The notes under the pieces are model-generated. The model made no database searches. It was not told the origin of the DNA and saw only the letters and a list, made by a program, of their open reading frames with translations. A DNA stretch of 32,256 bases, taken from a virus. The stretch spans positions 1 through 32,256 of the IMG/VR virus record IMGVR_UViG_3300035698_020863; one strand, 5' to 3'. Below are positions 1 through 8,860 of this stretch, one piece after another (the first letter of the stretch is position 1; each line of letters begins with the position of its first letter). Both the position numbers and the translations under genes were made by a program.

Positions 1-560
1 ACGCTAACCTGAGTGACGCTAACCTGAGGAACGCTGACCTGAGGAACGCTAACCTGAGGAACGCTGACCTGAGTGACGCTAACCTGTGGAACGCTAACCT
101 GAGTGACGCTAACCTGAGGAACGCTGACCTGAGTGACGCTAACCTGAGGAACGCTGACCTGTGGAACGCTAACCTGAGGAACGCTAACCTGAGTGACGCT
201 AACCTGTGGAACGCTAACCTGAGTGACGCTAACCTGAGTGACGCTAACCTGAGGAACGCTAACCTGAGTGACGCTAACCTGAGGAACGCTGACCTGTGGA
301 ACGCTAACCTGAGGAACGCTGGAAGCAACCTAAAGCACATCAAAACCATTAACCTTGAAACATACCCCATCACATATACCAGTGATGTTATGCAGATTGG
401 GTGTGAAAGGCATGATATTGTTGCTTGGAAAAAGTTTAAAGATGATAAAATTTCACGCATGGATGGTCAAGCTTTGGAGTGGTGGAAGAAATGGAAAACG
501 ACTATTTTTAAAATCATTAAAATGTCTCCATGCGAACCAACAAAGCTTAATGCGAAATAG
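1..560 (+). CDS. Pentapeptide-repeat protein, 3' part (5' end outside window)
   Basis: The only supported plus-strand gene. The frame whose codons begin at position 3 stays open from the window edge to TAG at 558-560, giving 185 visible codons. The first 105 residues are 21 uninterrupted pentapeptides of the form A(N/D)L(S/R/W)(D/N), the signature of the right-handed quadrilateral beta-helix of pentapeptide-repeat proteins. About 80 non-repeat residues follow, containing MQIGC, an HDIVAW stretch, an [16 protein letters not shown] stretch and a Lys-rich end. From memory, phage pentapeptide proteins often end in a similar module (IGC, H, W, F, D, I, M, A, WK spacing). Some family members (Qnr, MfpA, AlbG) mimic DNA and protect gyrase, but nothing here shows that role. 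The gene converges on the SF1 helicase gene with about 20 bp between stops. Start and promoter are not visible. Family call is confident; function unknown. Confidence 0.88.
3..317 (+). repeat. Tandem array of 21 near-identical 15-bp units
   Basis: Each unit is GCT (A/G)AC CTG followed by one of AGT GAC, AGG AAC or TGG AAC. Differences are confined to the first base of codon 2 and the last two codons, and the array continues past the left edge. The unit length is a multiple of three, so gain or loss of units changes protein length without changing frame. The array codes for the beta-helix of the pentapeptide protein. Confidence 0.95.
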
Positions 561-579
561 TTCGCACAAACGCCCACCT

Positions 580-2205
580 TCAAAAAAGCCTCACGCTATA
601 ACTTGAGGCCTGAGGAGCGACATATAAATTCTTCTTGGCTCTCGTCATCCCGACATAGAACACCCGCCTCTGGGCATCCCGATCATCTCCGCCTCGATCC
701 CATTCCTGAGCTCCTGCCCTCGAAATGTCAGGAAAAAGGAACACATTGTCAGCCTCAGCCCCCTTAACCGAATGAATAGTGCCCACGATGAGCTGAGGAG
801 GCTCGTGAGGGCCTATGACCTTCCCCGCCCTCATCATTGCCTTGGAAATGAACCGTATTGTCTCTGCTTTGCCCTTAGCGGCCCTCTCCTCCAAAAATTT
901 AAGCATGTGAAGACCCCATGGATCAAAACCGAACCATGGCCCATCTTCTAAATACTGGTGGAGCTGATCAGTTGAAAGCATCTCATGAGCCTTCTCTGTT
1001 TTGGCAATAGCGGCCAGCGTAATCGCGGCCCCTCGTTTAAAGATGCCCGTTTTATTAACCAAGCCTGACCATGCATGAAGATTGGCCGCTGACCAATGGG
1101 CATACATCTTGTCATCGTCCAGCTGGAGGAATTGTGTAACCCTCTGAAGAGTTGATCCCTGCTTTCTCATGATCGGGTTCCAATCACCCCGCTTCAATTT
1201 ATAGGGATTGTGGAACAAAATGCCCTGAGATCGCAACACGGCCACGGCTTCCTTTAACATATAGGAGCAGGAAGCTAACAGCATGCAGTCTTCCCCAAGC
1301 TCAAGCTTCTCAATAATTTTATCCACAATGGGCATTGGGTCTTTATAAGAGCCCTGTAAAAGGTTTTTAACTTCACCTTCCTGATGCTGTGGCTCGAAGT
1401 CCTTCTCCAAGCGATGGTAGCATTTTTTGATCCATGTGTTGGCAACAGCATGCACCGGAGCACCAAGCCTCCAAGACTTAGACAGGATGATCCTGTTTGC
1501 GTCAGGGATGTCTCTATCAATCATGTGACGGGCATCGGCCCCTGTAAATCTGTAGATGGCCTGATCGTCATCTCCAACAAAAACCACCCGCTCCATATTC
1601 TGAGCCCACTTCCTGACGCATTGAAACTGAGCCGCATTGAAGTCTTGTGCTTCATCAACAAACATAACATCAGGGTGTCCCGGGCAACTGTCAAAATTCT
1701 GAGCTCCAAGCGTAATCATGTCCCCATAGTCAATATAACCGCTCGCCCCCTTCCAATCTCCCCACCGTGTGGCAAAGTATCGAATTCTTTCTGGCCACAT
1801 CTCTGGTAAAATTAAACGGCTTCTAAGTAGATTATAAGACTGTAATAAGCCATCCCCAGAACCACTATCGCTGACCCCTTCATCATCAAGGTCGTTTGTT
1901 TCGCCCGTGAGTGTTAAGCTTGGATTACTTTCGTTCCAATCCTTGATATGGGCTTCAGCTATTTTGGGGAGATCGAGGGCTCTATAACAAAGGGAGTGAA
2001 GTGTGCCGACATTGTCAGGCATCACTGGGACATCCCGTTGGACGATTTCAGTTGCCGCGGCCTTAGTGAAAGAGCAGACAACAACCTTGTTGCCACCATG
2101 CTTTTCAACAGCGCGTTCTATATTTTTGGTGAGGGTTGTTGTTTTCCCGGCCCCCGGTGGACCGTAAATATGAAATTCATTATCTGACATCCGCCAACCA
2201 CTCAT
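580..2205 (-). CDS. Superfamily 1 (UvrD/PcrA/Rep-like) DNA helicase
   Basis: This 541-residue protein shows the SF1A helicase motifs in order. GPPGAGKTTT (about 15-24) is Walker A, and VCSFTKAAATEI (43-54) is motif Ia. DEAQD (184-188) is Walker B, and GDDDQAIYRFTGA (211-223) is motif III. SWRL (244-247) is motif IV, VGTIHSVKGAEADNVFLF is motif V, and RVFYVGMTRAKKNLYV near the end is motif VI. The family unwinds DNA 3' to 5' using ATP. The protein is shorter than UvrD (about 720 residues), so accessory subdomains are reduced. It is last in the leftward replication cluster and overlaps the gene before it. The start could be ATG at 2205 or at 2190; neither has a clear ribosome site. Likely role: phage replication or recombination. 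The specific role is inferred. Confidence 0.93.
   Translation of the reverse strand: MSGWRMSDNEFHIYGPPGAGKTTTLTKNIERAVEKHGGNKVVVCSFTKAAATEIVQRDVPVMPDNVGTLHSLCYRALDLPKIAEAHIKDWNESNPSLTLTGETNDLDDEGVSDSGSGDGLLQSYNLLRSRLILPEMWPERIRYFATRWGDWKGASGYIDYGDMITLGAQNFDSCPGHPDVMFVDEAQDFNAAQFQCVRKWAQNMERVVFVGDDDQAIYRFTGADARHMIDRDIPDANRIILSKSWRLGAPVHAVANTWIKKCYHRLEKDFEPQHQEGEVKNLLQGSYKDPMPIVDKIIEKLELGEDCMLLASCSYMLKEAVAVLRSQGILFHNPYKLKRGDWNPIMRKQGSTLQRVTQFLQLDDDKMYAHWSAANLHAWSGLVNKTGIFKRGAAITLAAIAKTEKAHEMLSTDQLHQYLEDGPWFGFDPWGLHMLKFLEERAAKGKAETIRFISKAMMRAGKVIGPHEPPQLIVGTIHSVKGAEADNVFLFPDISRAGAQEWDRGGDDRDAQRRVFYVGMTRAKKNLYVAPQASSYSVRLF
582..609 (-). terminator. Rho-independent terminator inside the 3' end of the SF1 helicase gene
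   Basis: Read on the minus strand, GCCTCA, a 10-nt loop and TGAGGC form a 6-bp stem that is followed directly by TTTTTT. The stem and T-run are themselves the last codons of the helicase (ASSYSVRLF then TGA), so coding and termination are superimposed. It would end leftward transcription before it meets the convergent pentapeptide gene. On the plus strand there is no T-run, so it looks one-directional. Confidence 0.7.
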
Positions 2206-2503
2206 CGGTTATGGCTTGCAGTTCTTCTCTGAGGGTGAGGTCTTTATCAAGTTCGATAGGGGCGGTCCCTGCGGAGGTATCAGAATAATAAATGCCATTT
2301 GTGGATGTTGCCGTGCTACAATTACCCCGAGGATCGTGGGCCCAATCCTGTTGCTGAGCCCCTGCAAGGGCTCCCCCAAGTGTTCCAAGCCCTGTTCCAC
2401 CAATACCTGTCATTTGCATCCTCTGTAAATCTGAATGTTGCCTCTGTAAATCCATAAGCTGTTGTTGCATTAGTCGCTCAACTGGGTCCTCAAATATTGC
2501 CAT
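2180..2503 (-). CDS. Small hypothetical phage protein, Gln-rich start
   Basis: Encodes 107 residues. The first 30 are helical and Gln/Met-rich (VERLMQQQLMDLQRQ), the middle is Gly-rich (GIGGTGLGTLGGALAGAQQQ), and the end is acidic with LTLREELQAITDEWLADV. That ending resembles the end of the preceding 55-residue gene (FKDLREELRALTDERLTG), so the two tails may be related by duplication. Its ATG overlaps the upstream stop as TGATG and its stop overlaps the helicase start, so translation is probably coupled. Function not recognised. Confidence 0.6.
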   Translation of the reverse strand: MAIFEDPVERLMQQQLMDLQRQHSDLQRMQMTGIGGTGLGTLGGALAGAQQQDWAHDPRGNCSTATSTNGIYYSDTSAGTAPIELDKDLTLREELQAITDEWLADVR

Positions 2504-2670
2504 CAGCCAGTAAGCCTCTCATCTGTGAGAGCCCTAAGCTCTTCTCTGAGGTCTTTAAACTTGAGGGGATTGGAAGCAGGGTTTTTAGCCATATATGCAT
2601 TCCATTCCCCTTCAATTTTCTTACACCCCAGAGCGTAAGCCCTGTTTTCTGCTCGTGTGGCAAAGGCCAT
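2503..2670 (-). CDS. 55-residue hypothetical protein
   Basis: A short ORF that begins MAFATRAENRAYALGCKKIE and ends FKDLREELRALTDERLTG. The ATG at 2668-2670 overlaps the stop of the zinc-ribbon frame as TAATG, and its stop overlaps the next start as TGATG. This double overlap, typical of the cluster, is the main evidence that it is real. Composition is charged and helical with one Cys. Function unknown. The C-terminal LREEL(R/Q)A(L/I)TDE(R/W)L motif is shared with the following gene. Confidence 0.6.
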   Translation of the reverse strand: MAFATRAENRAYALGCKKIEGEWNAYMAKNPASNPLKFKDLREELRALTDERLTG

Positions 2671-3188
2671 TAGCTATCCTTGACTTCTTTTTTGAAGCTG
2701 GCTGTAACATTGGGAAGCCGCTCAAGAAGATCTTTATACATGCCATCCATTTTCTCAAGTTGCGTTTCAAGATTTTTCTCGACTTTTTTCTGATAATCAG
2801 CCTTAACTTCAGCGACTTCATCATTCTTTTTGGCGGTGAGATCAAGCTCCCAACTTTTACGGTCAACGGCATCAGCCTCTTTTTCCATTTTCCGCATGTG
2901 AGCAATGTCGTCCATGGCGTGTTTGTTTTTTTGCTCAGCACCTTCGAGATCAAGCTCAGCTTTCGACTTTTCTCTTTCAAGCCGCTCGACAGTATATTTT
3001 AAGGTCCCCTTTTCAGAGGTAAGGGAGTTGACATCAGAATTGAGGCGGACAACGTCATCTGTTGGGTTTTGGTTACCGATTGGACCACAATGGGTGCATT
3101 TAAGCCACCCCTTGCGCCTCTTTAATTTGCATTTACCGCATTTTGGGCAATTAGATATTTTAAATCTCCATCCGTCTGGGGCTTCGCC
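2670..3188 (-). pseudogene. Zinc-ribbon plus coiled-coil ORF with no recognisable start codon
   Basis: An open frame of 172 codons between TAA at 3189-3191 and TAA at 2670-2672. Near its beginning it reads DGWRFKISNCPKCGKCK, then 10 residues, then CTHCG: a four-cysteine zinc ribbon (Cys 14, 17, 31, 34, with an extra Cys 20). A long charged coiled coil follows (EKGTLKYTVERLEREKSKAE and onward), ending ERLPNVTASFKKEVKDS. The zinc ribbon is too regular to be chance, yet the frame holds no ATG, GTG or TTG before the ATG at 2915, which lies in the coiled coil and has no ribosome site. Either the 5' end was lost to an insertion, a rare start is used, or the sequence contains an error. A shorter product from 2915 (81 residues) is possible. 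Zinc ribbons of this kind often bind nucleic acid; the role here is unknown. Confidence 0.55.
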
Positions 3189-3782: not shown

Positions 3783-3818
3783 AAATAGTAGGCTACATAA
3801 AGTACAAGCTTGTGTCAA
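3783..3818 (-). promoter_or_regulatory. Candidate sigma70-like promoter with two palindromes
   Basis: On the minus strand there is a perfect TTGACA (3818-3813), a 17-nt spacer and a weak TAGCCT (3795-3790). The expected start lies about 20 nt before the ATG at 3761 and leaves room for its AGGAG. The spacer contains the 10-bp palindrome ACAAGCTTGT (3804-3813), and GTAGGCTAC (3788-3796) covers the -10 region, as operators often do. It occupies the longest non-coding gap in the replication cluster apart from the odd region downstream. Activity is inferred. Confidence 0.4.
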
Positions 3819-5356
3819 TCATAAATTTCATTTATTTTTTTATGCCAGACATTCACGTTCACTCTCTTGCCTGCCTGATCATTAAAAGCCTTCTGTTTTG
3901 GTGTCCATCCGGCCCCTCTTAAAAACATGCCCAATTGCTTGGGGGTGAAGTTGGAGTTCTCATTGACTTTAATAAATCTGTGAACATCGTGAGAGAATAT
4001 AAAAACAGTGCCCTCTTCTCTATAAGGTCTGGCTTCCATGCCCACATCAGGGGTGAATTTATCAGCCATCTCGCCTCTATTGGAAAGGTAACGCTGAACC
4101 AAACTGCTTCCATACCCACCTTCTGTGGCCTCCGCACCAAGGTCAACTTTCTCACAGATGCTGAGCATGGCCTGAGCGTTCTGATCCCATGTTGGGCCCC
4201 TCTCCATCCTCACAACCATATCAGTTGCCTGTGCCATGGCCTTCCTGAAGGTTCCTTGGGTCACCAGAAGATCAATTCCACCAGAGACAGCCCCTCTGTC
4301 AGTCACAATCTTATATATGGGAGCCGGATCAGCGATAAACTTAGAGATGCTCAAAAATTTAAAGCCATAAATTTCACTGAGGTTCTCCTTAATGTGGATT
4401 TTCTTTTCATCGGTATCCACAAGCTCAAGGCTTTCAGGGGAGAGATTATCTTTTGCATCGTCTCTTTCCCTCCCCCGTCTTGCCGCCAGAATTGTACGGG
4501 CATAATAATCAGCCCTTAATTTTTCTTCTTCCCCGCTTCTTTCACGGAAAACAACAAGCCCTCCCATGATCTCAAGGTTTGACCAGCGGGCCCCCATGAA
4601 ATAATTGCACATGCTCAGGTCCCATTCAGACTGAGAAGAGAAGTCACCGCGCTCCTTATTCCAAACTTGGTAAGCCGCAGGCACGTTCTCCCAAAGCGTC
4701 AGCATTCTGTCAGCCGGAGGATCGGTAATATCTGCCATGTGAGGGGTGAGCTCGTCAATCAGCTCCTGAAGAACACCGTCTTCAACCTTTATATTAGGGC
4801 GGTCAGGTATGTTGTCAAAAATATCTTCCAAGACCTCCGCGGTCTCTTCAATGGTATCAGGTGAGCTTGGGAGATGTGAGCCAGTGATTGTTAGAAATCT
4901 GCCCCATTGATATATTTCAATATCCCCATGGCGTTTTCTGGCAAGCTCAAGGTCCCCAGTTACAAAAGCCCTGACACCAGTCCCCGAAGGGCTGATCTCG
5001 GTGTAGCTGTCGATCTTGGTAACGAGGGTCAAGGCCCAGTCCGACACAATCCCTGTGTCAGGATCATGACAATTATCAAAGTCGATCCCTGTATAAGGAT
5101 CACTTTCCGCGAGAACAAAACCAATCCCTGCATAGTCAGCATTGTCTTCACAGGCCTTATAAGCCTCCTCAAACGTGCACCATGTAGAGGGCTCCGTTAC
5201 AACTGCTTTCCCACCCGTCTTAGCATTGTAGGGAATTTTGCCAAACTTCTTTTTCCCGGGTATTTCCTTGATTTTCCAAGTCACCCATTGTGGAAGTTTG
5301 GCAAGTTCCTTAATTGCAGGCAAGTCGCGATCTGGTAAGGTTAACCATTCAGACAC
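3815..5356 (-). CDS. Archaeo-eukaryotic-type primase / primase-polymerase
   Basis: About 513 residues. The N-terminal 170 match phage and plasmid prim-pol proteins: LPQWVTWK near residue 25, KIPYNAKTG near 43, YAGIGFVLAESDPYTGIDFDNC (79-99) with the metal-binding D-x-D of GIDFD, SPSGTGVRAF (125-134), and EIYQWGRFLTITG (150-162). The next region (QSEWDLSMCNYFMGARW, then RADYYARTILAARR) resembles the helical PriCT-type segment that follows the catalytic core in such proteins, including NrS-1 phage polymerase. The C-terminal 200 residues have no recognised helicase motifs, so helicase activity must come from other genes. The start at GTG 5356 has GGAG 8 nt upstream; GTG 5365 overlaps that site. 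Expected role: priming and possibly DNA synthesis at the phage fork. Confidence 0.85.
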   Translation of the reverse strand: MSEWLTLPDRDLPAIKELAKLPQWVTWKIKEIPGKKKFGKIPYNAKTGGKAVVTEPSTWCTFEEAYKACEDNADYAGIGFVLAESDPYTGIDFDNCHDPDTGIVSDWALTLVTKIDSYTEISPSGTGVRAFVTGDLELARKRHGDIEIYQWGRFLTITGSHLPSSPDTIEETAEVLEDIFDNIPDRPNIKVEDGVLQELIDELTPHMADITDPPADRMLTLWENVPAAYQVWNKERGDFSSQSEWDLSMCNYFMGARWSNLEIMGGLVVFRERSGEEEKLRADYYARTILAARRGRERDDAKDNLSPESLELVDTDEKKIHIKENLSEIYGFKFLSISKFIADPAPIYKIVTDRGAVSGGIDLLVTQGTFRKAMAQATDMVVRMERGPTWDQNAQAMLSICEKVDLGAEATEGGYGSSLVQRYLSNRGEMADKFTPDVGMEARPYREEGTVFIFSHDVHRFIKVNENSNFTPKQLGMFLRGAGWTPKQKAFNDQAGKRVNVNVWHKKINEIYD

Positions 5357-5377
5357 AACCGACACTCCAAAGTTAAA

Positions 5378-6121
5378 TTAAGAGCGTTCCTCTGCGCCCG
5401 TATTGTCTGCATAGTCACCGTCAATGGGTATTGCTCCAAGTGCAGGGTTAATATCGTCCCTGTAAGACTTGATCCGAGCAGCTTCATGATCAGATAGTTT
5501 ACCAATGCTTTCAAATGTAACTTTAGAATATTTAACGCCTGTAGCATTCTTATCTTCAGTCAGCTTCAGACGGGTTACAACAGTGTAATAAGGCACGTTA
5601 TAGCTTGCCATACGGATAAAGTATTTACGGGCGTTTTTAAGGCTCGTGGGTGGGCAAACCAACATGATTGGAAGAAGACCGTTCTCAGTTAAGAAGAACA
5701 TCCTGCGAGACTGTGAGCAAGCCTGACCTTCACCTTTTTCAGCAGAGCCAAATTTGGAGAGAGGACATTTAACACAGTCACCTCCGGGTTCACCTTCGCC
5801 TTCAATGCAATCCAAAGACTGACAATCAGGGGGCTGGCCGGGGTTGTCTTCAAAACTTTCTTTCCAATAGCTTCGGATGTCTTGAGAATAAATAATAATG
5901 CCATCCACATGCTTGACCATTTGGTCACCTTCCATCGTGTGGACAGTCCAATTTACACCGCCTCCAGATGGGATGCCTAATTTATCAAGATCGAAGATAT
6001 TGAGGTCAGCCCCAACATTTTCTCTGATGACTTCTTGTAGAAGTGATTTGTCAGCGGTAATTGATACAAAATTACTGGCTGGACTTAGGGCAACTTCGGT
6101 CCCTGTTTCTGTTTCGCTCAT
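5378..6121 (-). CDS. Cysteine-rich phage replication-cluster protein, possible ssDNA-binding protein
   Basis: 247 residues with a cysteine cluster in the middle: PDCQSLDC, then GGDCVKCPLSKFGSA, then GQACSQSRRMFF. Next come LPIMLVCPPTS and a beta-rich stretch ending YYTVVTRLKLTEDKN. From memory, many phages carry a similar protein (CxxCP, KFGSA, a later Cys, R-R-hydrophobic, PPTS) near primase genes, sometimes labelled as ssDNA-binding. I cannot verify that label. The tail is acidic (IDGDYADNTGAEERS), a trait of phage ssDNA-binding proteins such as T7 gp2.5. The gene lies directly before the primase, and its start overlaps the upstream stop as TCATGA read on plus. A role with single-stranded DNA at the fork is plausible. 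Confidence 0.55.
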   Translation of the reverse strand: MSETETGTEVALSPASNFVSITADKSLLQEVIRENVGADLNIFDLDKLGIPSGGGVNWTVHTMEGDQMVKHVDGIIIYSQDIRSYWKESFEDNPGQPPDCQSLDCIEGEGEPGGDCVKCPLSKFGSAEKGEGQACSQSRRMFFLTENGLLPIMLVCPPTSLKNARKYFIRMASYNVPYYTVVTRLKLTEDKNATGVKYSKVTFESIGKLSDHEAARIKSYRDDINPALGAIPIDGDYADNTGAEERS

Positions 6122-6582
6122 GATTTTCTGGCTCCTATTGAATATATTTCATGAATGCTTAGAACATCCCTGACACCTTCTTGCAAGAGATTTTCTATGC
6201 TGTTGACAGGGGCTTCCATTGTTTCCTCAAGGTTCTTATAAAAACTTGAGAGTGATCGTGCATTAACAGCGGGTTTAACGTATTCACCCATCCCCGCTTT
6301 AATGAGTGCTTCCGACATATCTTCCGCAGTCACATCCGATTTCTTAGAAACAGCGATGCGCCTTTTGAGATGAATTGTCATGCCTTCAATTTTTGAACTA
6401 CTGGAGCCCATCTGTTGAAAATGATAGAGGACCAACGGCTCTAAGTCAGCCATATCCCTCTTGTTCTTATCGACCTGAGCGGCCAATTCTTTTTTCTGGA
6501 TGGCGAGCTGAGCATATTTCTTAACATGCTTGGCACTGCCTGTCCGTCTGGAGCCATCAGGCTCTGGTTTTTTAACTGCCAT
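6118..6582 (-). CDS. Helical phage protein of the replication cluster
   Basis: About 154 residues from ATG 6582, which has AAGGA upstream and overlaps the end of the XRE gene; a longer frame to 6648 would overlap that gene more deeply. The N-terminal half is a Lys/Gln-rich helix (VKKYAQLAIQKKELAAQVDK). Then come LEPLVLYHFQQMGSSS, KIEGMTIHLKRRIAV and VNARSLSSFYKNLEE. The order helix, 'LE..L..F...G', basic beta strand, then 'VN...L..' recurs in phage proteins of unknown function near ssDNA-binding genes, as far as I recall. It is probably part of the replication machinery. Function not known. Confidence 0.65.
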   Translation of the reverse strand: MAVKKPEPDGSRRTGSAKHVKKYAQLAIQKKELAAQVDKNKRDMADLEPLVLYHFQQMGSSSSKIEGMTIHLKRRIAVSKKSDVTAEDMSEALIKAGMGEYVKPAVNARSLSSFYKNLEETMEAPVNSIENLLQEGVRDVLSIHEIYSIGARKS

Positions 6583-6808
6583 CGGCTTTTTCCTTAAAGG
6601 GTCGGCCCTCTTCAAGAGCCAGATAAAGTTCATCGGAGCTGACACCAATAACAGCGGTCAGCCTTTTCCGTATCATATGGCTTGGCTTGTTACGGCTGTG
6701 CTCCCAGTTCTTAACAGCGTTAAGGTGAACTCCAAGCTTATTCGCAAGGGTCAGTTGGGTCATAGCCTTCCGGCCTCTCCATTCCACAATGGGGTTAATC
6801 TTGTTCAT
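6572..6808 (-). CDS. XRE/Cro-family helix-turn-helix regulator
   Basis: 78 residues. MTQLTLANKLGVHLNAVKNW (15-34) followed by EHSRNKPSHMIRKRL is a Cro/CI-type helix-turn-helix, with the recognition helix around HLNAVKNWE. The length and single domain fit a small Cro-like or XRE regulator that binds a palindromic operator. It is embedded in the replication cluster and overlaps both the SNF2 gene and the following gene. It is therefore expressed with them and may feed back on cluster promoters, for example the palindromes near 3.8 kb. No integrase or opposing repressor gene is seen, so it is not evidence for lysogeny by itself. Confidence 0.85.
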   Translation of the reverse strand: MNKINPIVEWRGRKAMTQLTLANKLGVHLNAVKNWEHSRNKPSHMIRKRLTAVIGVSSDELYLALEEGRPFKEKADGS

Positions 6809-8483
6809 TTTCGCCTCTCATTTCCAAGACGCTATTCACTGCTTTGCGTCTTTTCTTTAATGCCCTGTAAACAATGGGCTCGATTGTTTCCTCAGTCATA
6901 AACTGGGTAAAAGTTACTGGTCTCGTTTGGCCCGGTCTATGAAGGCGAGCACGAGATTGATCATAATCTCCCAACGAAAAGGTTGGTGAGAAATCAATAG
7001 CAAAAGCCGATCTGGTCAGGTCAATTCCTGTGCCACCAGACTTGACATTCACGGCCATAAAATCTATATTATCCGGCATCTCGGATGTTGGCGTAAGATC
7101 ATGACAGCGACCCGTGATCTCTCCGGTTCTCCAACCGCAGGCCTTGGCCACTTCCAACATCTTATCAACCTCCCAAGTAAAATTGCAAAAGCAAATAACA
7201 GGATCGGTTTCAGGGACAAGTCCATCTAAAATATCTTTAAGGGCAACAAACTTGTGGTCGCACATCTCAATTAACTTATCTTCATCATCCATAATGTAGC
7301 CGGAAGCCATCTGCCTGCACCTGATCAATTTTGTCAGGGCATTGGCAACGGTGACTTCACCATTATCCACAAGGGCAAAGAAATTCTCCTCAAGGTCATT
7401 ATAGCTCTCATATGACTTGTCATCCATTTTTAGGTATCTCGGCACCATTAGGAGCTCTGGGAGGTCCAGCACGTCTTCTTTTTTGACCCTGAAGGCTATT
7501 GATTGGAACTTGTCGTTCAGCTCCTCAGTATTCTTAATATCTACAATCCTGTTGACTGTCCGGCCACCCTTGTGGACATCAGCCCGTTCTTCTCTGTTAT
7601 CTCTGATCGTGAGGGGCTCGAAGACGGCATAATGCTGTCTGAATATGTGAGCATTCGATCCAAATATTGCAGGCTCCAAGAAGCGATATTGGCCAAAGCA
7701 ATCCAGCGGAGAGTGAGGCATCGGTGTGCCAGTCAAAGCCAACCTTTGTTTTGCCAATGGGGCCAACTGGTAAATGAAGTGAGCGAGCTTGCTTGCAGGG
7801 TCTTTGGCTCTGTGGCTCTCATCCACAATAACACAATCCCAGTCACGGGCTAAAATCCATGCCCCCATCTTTCCTCGCCAAGCGGCTTCATGATTTACAA
7901 CAACCGCCCATGGTCTGCCTTTAGCGTCAGCAACTGAGGTTTTTAATTCAGCCTTCTTTAAATTTTTAACGGTGCTACCAAGGTCGAGAGTGACAACTTC
8001 CATCTTACCATCATAATGTCTATCAAATTCTCTGGGCCAAACGCCAACAACTGATTTCGGGCATAATATAAGGATGTTTTTATGTCTGCGGTTTTGGACA
8101 ATATCAACGGCAACTTTTGATTTGCCAGTGCCCATATCCATGGCCAACATAACACCCGTTTGATTTCGGGCGAAGTGAAAGGCCTGAAGCTGGTGGTTCC
8201 AACAATCGGTCTTTCTTAAATTAGGTTGAGAGTGGTTATCCAAAATACGATTTATGCCATAAACTTCTTCTTCCACCCAGAGGGATGAAAGTTCTGTCAG
8301 AATTGAGTGTTTGAACCCTTTCCTACAAAGTTTTCGAGCCATCAAAGGCGTTGCCGGAAACTCCCAGTGCCTTGCGGCTTGGTTCCATTCTCCACAAGGG
8401 AGCGATGCCAGAAGCGGCTTCATGCCGAACTCTGTTTTAACTGTGATTTTGGTTCTTGTCCTGCCGATTATTGCTTTGATCAT
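6795..8483 (-). CDS. SNF2-family (DEAD/DEAH-like) helicase/translocase
   Basis: 562 residues. The N-terminus (GEWNQAARHWEFP, about 31-43) resembles the HARP-type DNA-binding element that precedes SNF2 domains. The first motor domain has DMGTGKSK (116-123, Walker A), ILCPKSVVGVWPREF (motif Ia), DESH (221-224, Walker B) and LTGTPM (250-255, motif III). The second has VKSGGTGIDLT (motif V) and QSRARLHRPGQ (motif VI). SNF2 enzymes move on duplex DNA using ATP and remodel or reverse forks. Phage versions are common in replication clusters, but their role is poorly known. No ribosome site precedes ATG 8483; a promoter-like sequence lies just upstream, which would give a leaderless message. Confidence 0.93.
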   Translation of the reverse strand: MIKAIIGRTRTKITVKTEFGMKPLLASLPCGEWNQAARHWEFPATPLMARKLCRKGFKHSILTELSSLWVEEEVYGINRILDNHSQPNLRKTDCWNHQLQAFHFARNQTGVMLAMDMGTGKSKVAVDIVQNRRHKNILILCPKSVVGVWPREFDRHYDGKMEVVTLDLGSTVKNLKKAELKTSVADAKGRPWAVVVNHEAAWRGKMGAWILARDWDCVIVDESHRAKDPASKLAHFIYQLAPLAKQRLALTGTPMPHSPLDCFGQYRFLEPAIFGSNAHIFRQHYAVFEPLTIRDNREERADVHKGGRTVNRIVDIKNTEELNDKFQSIAFRVKKEDVLDLPELLMVPRYLKMDDKSYESYNDLEENFFALVDNGEVTVANALTKLIRCRQMASGYIMDDEDKLIEMCDHKFVALKDILDGLVPETDPVICFCNFTWEVDKMLEVAKACGWRTGEITGRCHDLTPTSEMPDNIDFMAVNVKSGGTGIDLTRSAFAIDFSPTFSLGDYDQSRARLHRPGQTRPVTFTQFMTEETIEPIVYRALKKRRKAVNSVLEMRGENEQD

Positions 8484-8491
8484 TTGGGTAC

Positions 8492-8518
8492 ACTATAGAC
8501 TTTTTATGTACGTTGCAA
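8492..8518 (-). promoter_or_regulatory. Candidate promoter giving a leaderless SNF2 transcript
   Basis: On the minus strand TTGCAA (8518-8513) and TATAGT (8497-8492) are separated by 15 nt. The start would fall within a base or two of the SNF2 ATG at 8483. That matches the absence of a ribosome-binding site before this ATG. The short spacer is a weakness. If real, it separates the DNA-metabolism genes from the nuclease and lysis genes upstream. Confidence 0.3.
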
Positions 8519-8860
8519 CATCTTTTTTATTGTATCTTGAAATTCGTCTACAGATTTAACAACAGCAGTCGGGCAACCCATGCTGTCAGCCATTTCTAGG
8601 AATGATTTTTGTTTTTGGGAAAGCGATCCGCCCGGAGCTTTTAGCTCAATACAGCCCCATGGACGGTCTGGTATCATGATAATAAAGTCCGACACTCCGG
8701 CCTTCACTCCCATCCTCTTAAACTTGACAGCCTCAGTCACACTTCTGTTGCCCCCATTGGGAACATGGAACCAATAAAACTTCATTTGCTTTGAGAGGAT
8801 AAGAGCCATTTGATTGCAAGCAATCTGAAGGTCTTCTTCAGGATGTTTACGCTTGGCCAT
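8504..8860 (-). CDS. VRR-NUC domain nuclease
   Basis: 118 residues, the size of a stand-alone phage VRR-NUC protein. The family motifs are in order: an N-terminal helix with EEDLQIACNQ, then HVPNGGNRS (32-40), GVKAGVSDFIIM (51-62) with the catalytic Asp, IELKAPGGSLS (71-81) with the E-x-K pair, and QKQKSFLEM. This is the PD-(D/E)XK fold. Members act on branched or flapped DNA, and the phage versions are thought to work as structure-specific nucleases or Holliday-junction enzymes. It sits at the boundary of the lysis and replication genes, directly upstream of the SNF2 helicase, suggesting joint action on replication or recombination intermediates. Start ATG directly follows the upstream TGA. 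Confidence 0.9.
   Translation of the reverse strand: MAKRKHPEEDLQIACNQMALILSKQMKFYWFHVPNGGNRSVTEAVKFKRMGVKAGVSDFIIMIPDRPWGCIELKAPGGSLSQKQKSFLEMADSMGCPTAVVKSVDEFQDTIKKMLQRT

Follow-up and report, generated by a model that had tools for sequence, protein, structure and literature searches.

At the left end of the window (the entire 32,256-bp virus record), a plus-strand frame built of near-perfect repeats raises the question of whether it encodes a protein, whether the record end is also the end of a phage genome, and what role such a protein might have. Phage pentapeptide-repeat proteins are common, and no functional tests of them were found in the literature. The following features were recognized:

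3–560, plus strand: pentapeptide-repeat protein gene, 5'-truncated by the record end (ORF; Pfam PF00805; complete relative L016)
3–317, plus strand: 21 perfect 15-bp units, each a pentapeptide of A(N/D)L plus SD, RN or WN (unit count; TRF; L016 model)
318–557, plus strand: class A C-terminal module of 80 amino acids, four strands then three helices (40-sequence alignment; AlphaFold2; PHROG 31567)
580–2205, minus strand: phage DNA helicase gene, convergent with the pentapeptide gene (phrog_1967, E 1e-72)
3815–8860, minus strand: replication cluster (PHROG matches), comprising the next three
3815–5365, minus strand: primase (PHROG match)
6795–8483, minus strand: second helicase (PHROG match)
8504–8860, minus strand: endonuclease-like (PHROG match)

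The truncated gene and the end of the record

The ORF at 3–560 comprises 185 codons, is open at its 5' end and terminates with TAG at 558–560. An earlier note, made from the letters alone, had described an open plus-strand frame of 21 perfect A(N/D)LXX pentapeptides with a distinct C-terminal module; ORF, repeat count and PF00805 agree with this. Also as noted there, the other genes run leftward: all major ORFs outside 3–560 lie on the minus strand and include, by PHROG, two helicases, a primase, a nuclease, the major head protein and the portal. Assignment to the PF00805 superfamily required a minimum of eight A(D/N)LXX-type pentapeptides in a row together with the Pfam gathering score; the window protein has 21 contiguous units and scores 121 bits (E 1.3e-35; cut-off 20.2). 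The decapeptide repeat region PF25296 reached 40.8 bits with the same protein, under its 45-bit gathering score. Window 3–560 is a genuine protein gene, most of which is present; its missing N-terminal part would correspond to that of relatives such as L016 (IMG/VR 3300022562_000492), a complete gene of 189 amino acids with an N-terminal cap (N-cap).

TRF reported a single array (window 1–320, period 15, 21.3 copies, score 465), in which each unit consists of ANL or ADL and one of three linked pairs, SD, RN or WN. Only plus frame 3 is open across the array, which is informative since the other two plus frames carry a stop (TGA or TAA) in every unit. An antisense frame of 153 codons (window 2–460, minus strand) is likewise open, because the 15-bp unit length is divisible by three, and was not counted as a gene. 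The 21 units show zero synonymous differences among themselves. This was considered as a remarkable sign and rejected: across the family, the median numbers of variants are 0.5 (synonymous) and 5 (nonsynonymous), few synonymous variants being expected from recent expansion out of a few units. Whether SD alternates with RN/WN was tested as well: the window array gave no significance (p about 0.1–0.2), that of L016 a suggestive value (p 0.007). Comparison within window 1–560 revealed a G+C content of 55 % for the array and 37 % for the C-terminal module (C-module), the whole window having 46 %.

The window array is expected to form a right-handed quadrilateral beta-helix of about five coils. This fold was recognized in a prediction for L016 (pLDDT 94, pTM 0.86), where the rod is preceded by an N-cap (two strands, one helix) and followed by the C-module, and where the rod structurally matches Np275, HetL, MfpA, QnrB and others. 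The L016 and window genes have C-modules that are 56 % identical and the same vocabulary of SD, RN and WN units; they differ in that L016 is co-oriented with its early neighbours and uses different codons at every degenerate slot of its array. The same vocabulary in different codons suggests peptide-level selection and argues that the peptide pattern rather than the DNA has been preserved, although convergence could produce the same picture.

The earlier note located the gene at a genome end, whereas an assembly break inside the repeat best explains why the contig stops there. Among 80 contigs with the family N-cap, 23 end inside the array, compared with about 2.4 expected for random ends by a rough one-sided estimate, and in 3300045999_006059 and 3300045391_005918 the two halves of such a gene lie at opposite contig ends. 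Pentapeptide repeats have moreover been reported to be 26 times commoner in raw long reads than in assemblies, with repeats blamed for the fragmentation (PMC9238414). For these reasons, the window contig most likely broke within the array. A search of viral_contigs with the 15-bp array DNA pattern did not recover the missing N-terminal half and returned one other contig only (L010/L011), which carries a different C-module behind a likewise broken array.

The nearest relative is IMG/VR 3300043256_000370 (G024; 49,521 bp), with a portal 65 % and a helicase (L005/G024) 68 % identical to those of the window. An overlap of 127 bp between its two ends suggests that it is a complete genome (about 49.4 kb); should the window phage have a comparable genome size, the window would lack about one third of the whole. 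In the window, the stop codons of the helicase and pentapeptide genes are 19 bp apart. The corresponding slot of G024, past the helicase and convergent with it, marks the start of a series of small ORFs, at least ten in number and all on the minus strand (L005 7768–12989), beyond which opposite-strand genes resume. By synteny with this one relative, the window gene is probably the distal end of an opposite-strand small-gene cluster and not the self-contained, oppositely oriented gene described in the earlier note. Slot occupancy is known from a single genome, as helicase and portal searches gave G024 as the one complete relative and one further fragment (L158, portal only); DNA-level relatives of window 320–3000 were not found among phage records. 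The slot itself is occupied in G024 by another tandem-repeat protein (L005:7768–8244, minus strand), whose N-terminal half is unique and whose array is of the DGYGYGYGSGDG type; the class A module is absent from this genome. In several relatives the pentapeptide gene points the same way as the early genes beside it. At window 583–609 (minus strand), the inverted repeat GCCTCA..TGAGGC, with six T after it, overlaps the last helicase codons; by eye it is a possible terminator, unlisted by a scan with a loop limit of 8.

The C-terminal module and its exchange among relatives

The term class A phage pentapeptide proteins denotes a grouping made in this analysis, defined by the module core IGC..H...W..F.D..I..M...AL.WW; its further criterion is a cap at the N-terminus belonging to one of two or three types. 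In an alignment of 40 distinct copies, I28, G29, W38, M49 and L54 are invariant, and among the nearly invariant positions are C30, H33, F41 and D43 (A2 numbering). The window module carries this core (IGC..H, W, F.D, M, AL.W) and matches PHROG 31567 (function not annotated) with E 5.5e-10, and all 40 copies match this PHROG; Pfam yielded no convincing family for these copies (best E 0.012, 2 of 40). Searching the C-terminal 80 residues against phage proteins, which the earlier note had recommended, retrieved many phage homologues, and class A homologues occur in viral contigs, bacterial genomes, phage records and plasmid records. Modelling of the fold, likewise recommended, gave a confident AlphaFold2 model of window 315–557 (pLDDT 92), in which three helices follow four strands, and in the class A models a long helix closes the module. 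Searches of solved structures with the C-module returned no clear match (Foldseek PDB best E 1.5, VIA best Z 3.5), which does not make the fold new; the viral structure models that match it are phage pentapeptide proteins.

At least five C-module classes, unrelated in appearance, occur behind one and the same N-cap (L071–L150): class A as in the window, class B (CLVGT...PAEQWF), class C (AGCR), class D, which corresponds to Pfam DUF5758, the sole Pfam family among the scanned representatives, and class E (HCRAGWAV). Kinship of class C with class A was suggested by similarity seen by eye and rejected, profile comparison giving a probability of 1.9 %. The class A module is also found on further N-cap types. 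The 'pentapeptide' proteins of Rheinheimera Barba phages share it with the window protein (about 51–57 % identical over the matched part) but have a second N-cap type and S/R-G units in place of SD, RN and WN. Salmonella phage L orf232 and ST64T p22 likewise combine an array with a relative of the class A module (tblastn E 3e-7); they differ from the window protein by another N-cap (LSKILEEHKVWI type) and a diverged C-module. In an Acidobacteriia MAG (L056:3611–5062), two adjacent genes carry the class A module after a Cys-rich NCS/GCS tripeptide array.

Array length and genomic neighbourhood

Between the caps, the arrays of relatives contain 8 to 42 units. Among Barba phages that are identical in N-cap and C-module, the coding sequence measures 498, 513, 558, 573, 618 or 678 nt, always differing by multiples of 15 nt, some of these records containing ambiguous bases inside the array. 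The array of phage L orf232 and ST64T p22 gains or loses single units: the two phages are >99.9 % identical and have two differing sites, one of which is a single lost pentapeptide (PMC8022706). Such changes in rod length could be neutral slippage. Since rods change length quickly, assemblies often break at genes of this family. Five gene copies (L047–L051) reside on the Roseovarius chromosome OX638333.1, in one of which N-cap and array together are 261 nt shorter; array end and downstream sequence (4,352 nt) show one base difference, and the upstream sequence differs between copies.

The earlier note regarded the location as typical of an accessory gene, which fits the relatives, these being situated in early recombination, replication and accessory regions. 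Among 129 neighbouring ORFs, picked by ORF length and thus a rough survey, helicases, repressors, RecE/YqaJ, Erf/RecT and NinB lead the PHROG and Pfam tallies. In the early left operon of ST64T, the gene overlaps the end of ral and is followed by superinfection exclusion, cIII, kil, erf, abc1 and abc2; megablast of the ST64T gene against E. coli genomes gave no match. In Caulobacter phage BL94, the pentapeptide gene adjoins the DNA polymerase gene. In L024, a class A gene is directly preceded by a Tad6-like frame (Thoeris inhibitor, PF25188; L024:2993–3520) that a single TAG interrupts. PADLOC, run at E up to 1 with the window protein and three relatives, gave no match, which neither supports nor excludes a counter-defence role. 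No test of a class A protein was found in the literature, the papers on the Barba phages and epsilon34 being silent on the gene.

Comparison among the sequences shows the modular architecture, the conservation of the C-module, the exchange of C-modules and, in relatives, the rapid change in rod length and the early placement.

A proposed role and its alternatives

The favoured reading, to which we assign about an even chance, is that of a modular early accessory adaptor, likely for host takeover or counter-defence. In this protein a short N-terminal cap, missing from the window, leads into a rigid rod, predicted to be a right-handed beta-helix and at least 21 pentapeptides long, and a small conserved C-terminal domain follows; the protein would be made early in infection and bind a host protein. 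The C-module may provide the specific contact or dimerise the rod, which in turn may act as an evolvable spacer or as a repetitive binding surface, its length being tuned through gain and loss of 15-bp units. Host takeover or counter-defence would be the likely use, the latter as one option only because replication and recombination genes also occupy early regions.

Alternatively, the protein could modulate gyrase or topoisomerase in the manner of MfpA, Qnr and McbG, with the rod imitating duplex DNA and the C-module dimerising, which is possible, not favoured and in our judgement unlikely. The family shares with these proteins the beta-helix fold, MfpA and QnrB being among its structural matches, and a helical C-terminal end, its C-module finishing in a long helix; known gyrase-binding pentapeptide proteins dimerise via C-terminal helices, and gyrase inhibitors are encoded by other phages (PMC10886550). 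It differs from them by its larger C-terminal module and by a near-neutral, loop-free array, and it is the latter that disfavours mimicry: calculated from the sequence, the window array has a net charge of –4 over 21 units with 9 Arg, the family median is –0.11 per unit, and no loops interrupt the rod. Furthermore, the window protein stays far under the NCBIfam equivalog cut-offs for Qnr (36.9 versus 240 bits) and MfpA (38.5 versus 360 bits), scores that were obtained with the truncated protein, though the gap is large and complete relatives fail too, and near-identical phages differ freely in array length. The gyrase protection contemplated in the earlier note has gained no positive evidence.

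A helper of phage DNA replication or recombination, i.e. a scaffold for helicase, annealing protein or nuclease that is not host-directed, would agree with the helicase, Erf/RecT, RecE and primase genes that neighbour it, both in the window and in many relatives, as well as with the DNA polymerase next to the gene in BL94. However, the gene is sporadic, the close relative G024 possessing replication genes without the class A module, and it occurs with exchangeable C-modules in very different phages with unrelated replication systems, so that this role, too, appears rather improbable. We are somewhat more sceptical still of a superinfection-exclusion or prophage-conferred defence factor serving the lysogen: the gene adjoins the superinfection exclusion gene in ST64T and occurs in prophages and plasmids, but it is also present in Barba phages (111 records, one host strain; not known to be temperate), and PADLOC yielded no match. 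That the near-perfect 15-bp direct repeats beside the replication cluster are iterons or another replication signal with an incidental coding frame is scarcely credible, given the strong argument that L016 provides against a sole DNA role by keeping the peptide vocabulary in different codons, the in-frame length changes of relatives and the fusion of the array to a conserved protein domain.

Extending the early adaptor reading, a common N-cap and a fast-changing rod might present interchangeable C-modules, each for a different host or defence protein, in a class whose changes in rod length would be an adaptive, rapidly evolving trait that is systematically overlooked in metagenome assemblies; this wider proposal is tentative and rather improbable.

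The window gene belongs to a widespread phage pentapeptide family, of which it is a fairly ordinary representative; its C-terminal domain is conserved yet undescribed. For the interpretation of viral contigs, an end within a pentapeptide array should not be taken for a genome end. The present case offers a clean domain boundary and a confidently modelled, undescribed C-terminal domain, and the natural length variants of the Barba phages and of L versus ST64T make the role of rod length directly testable.
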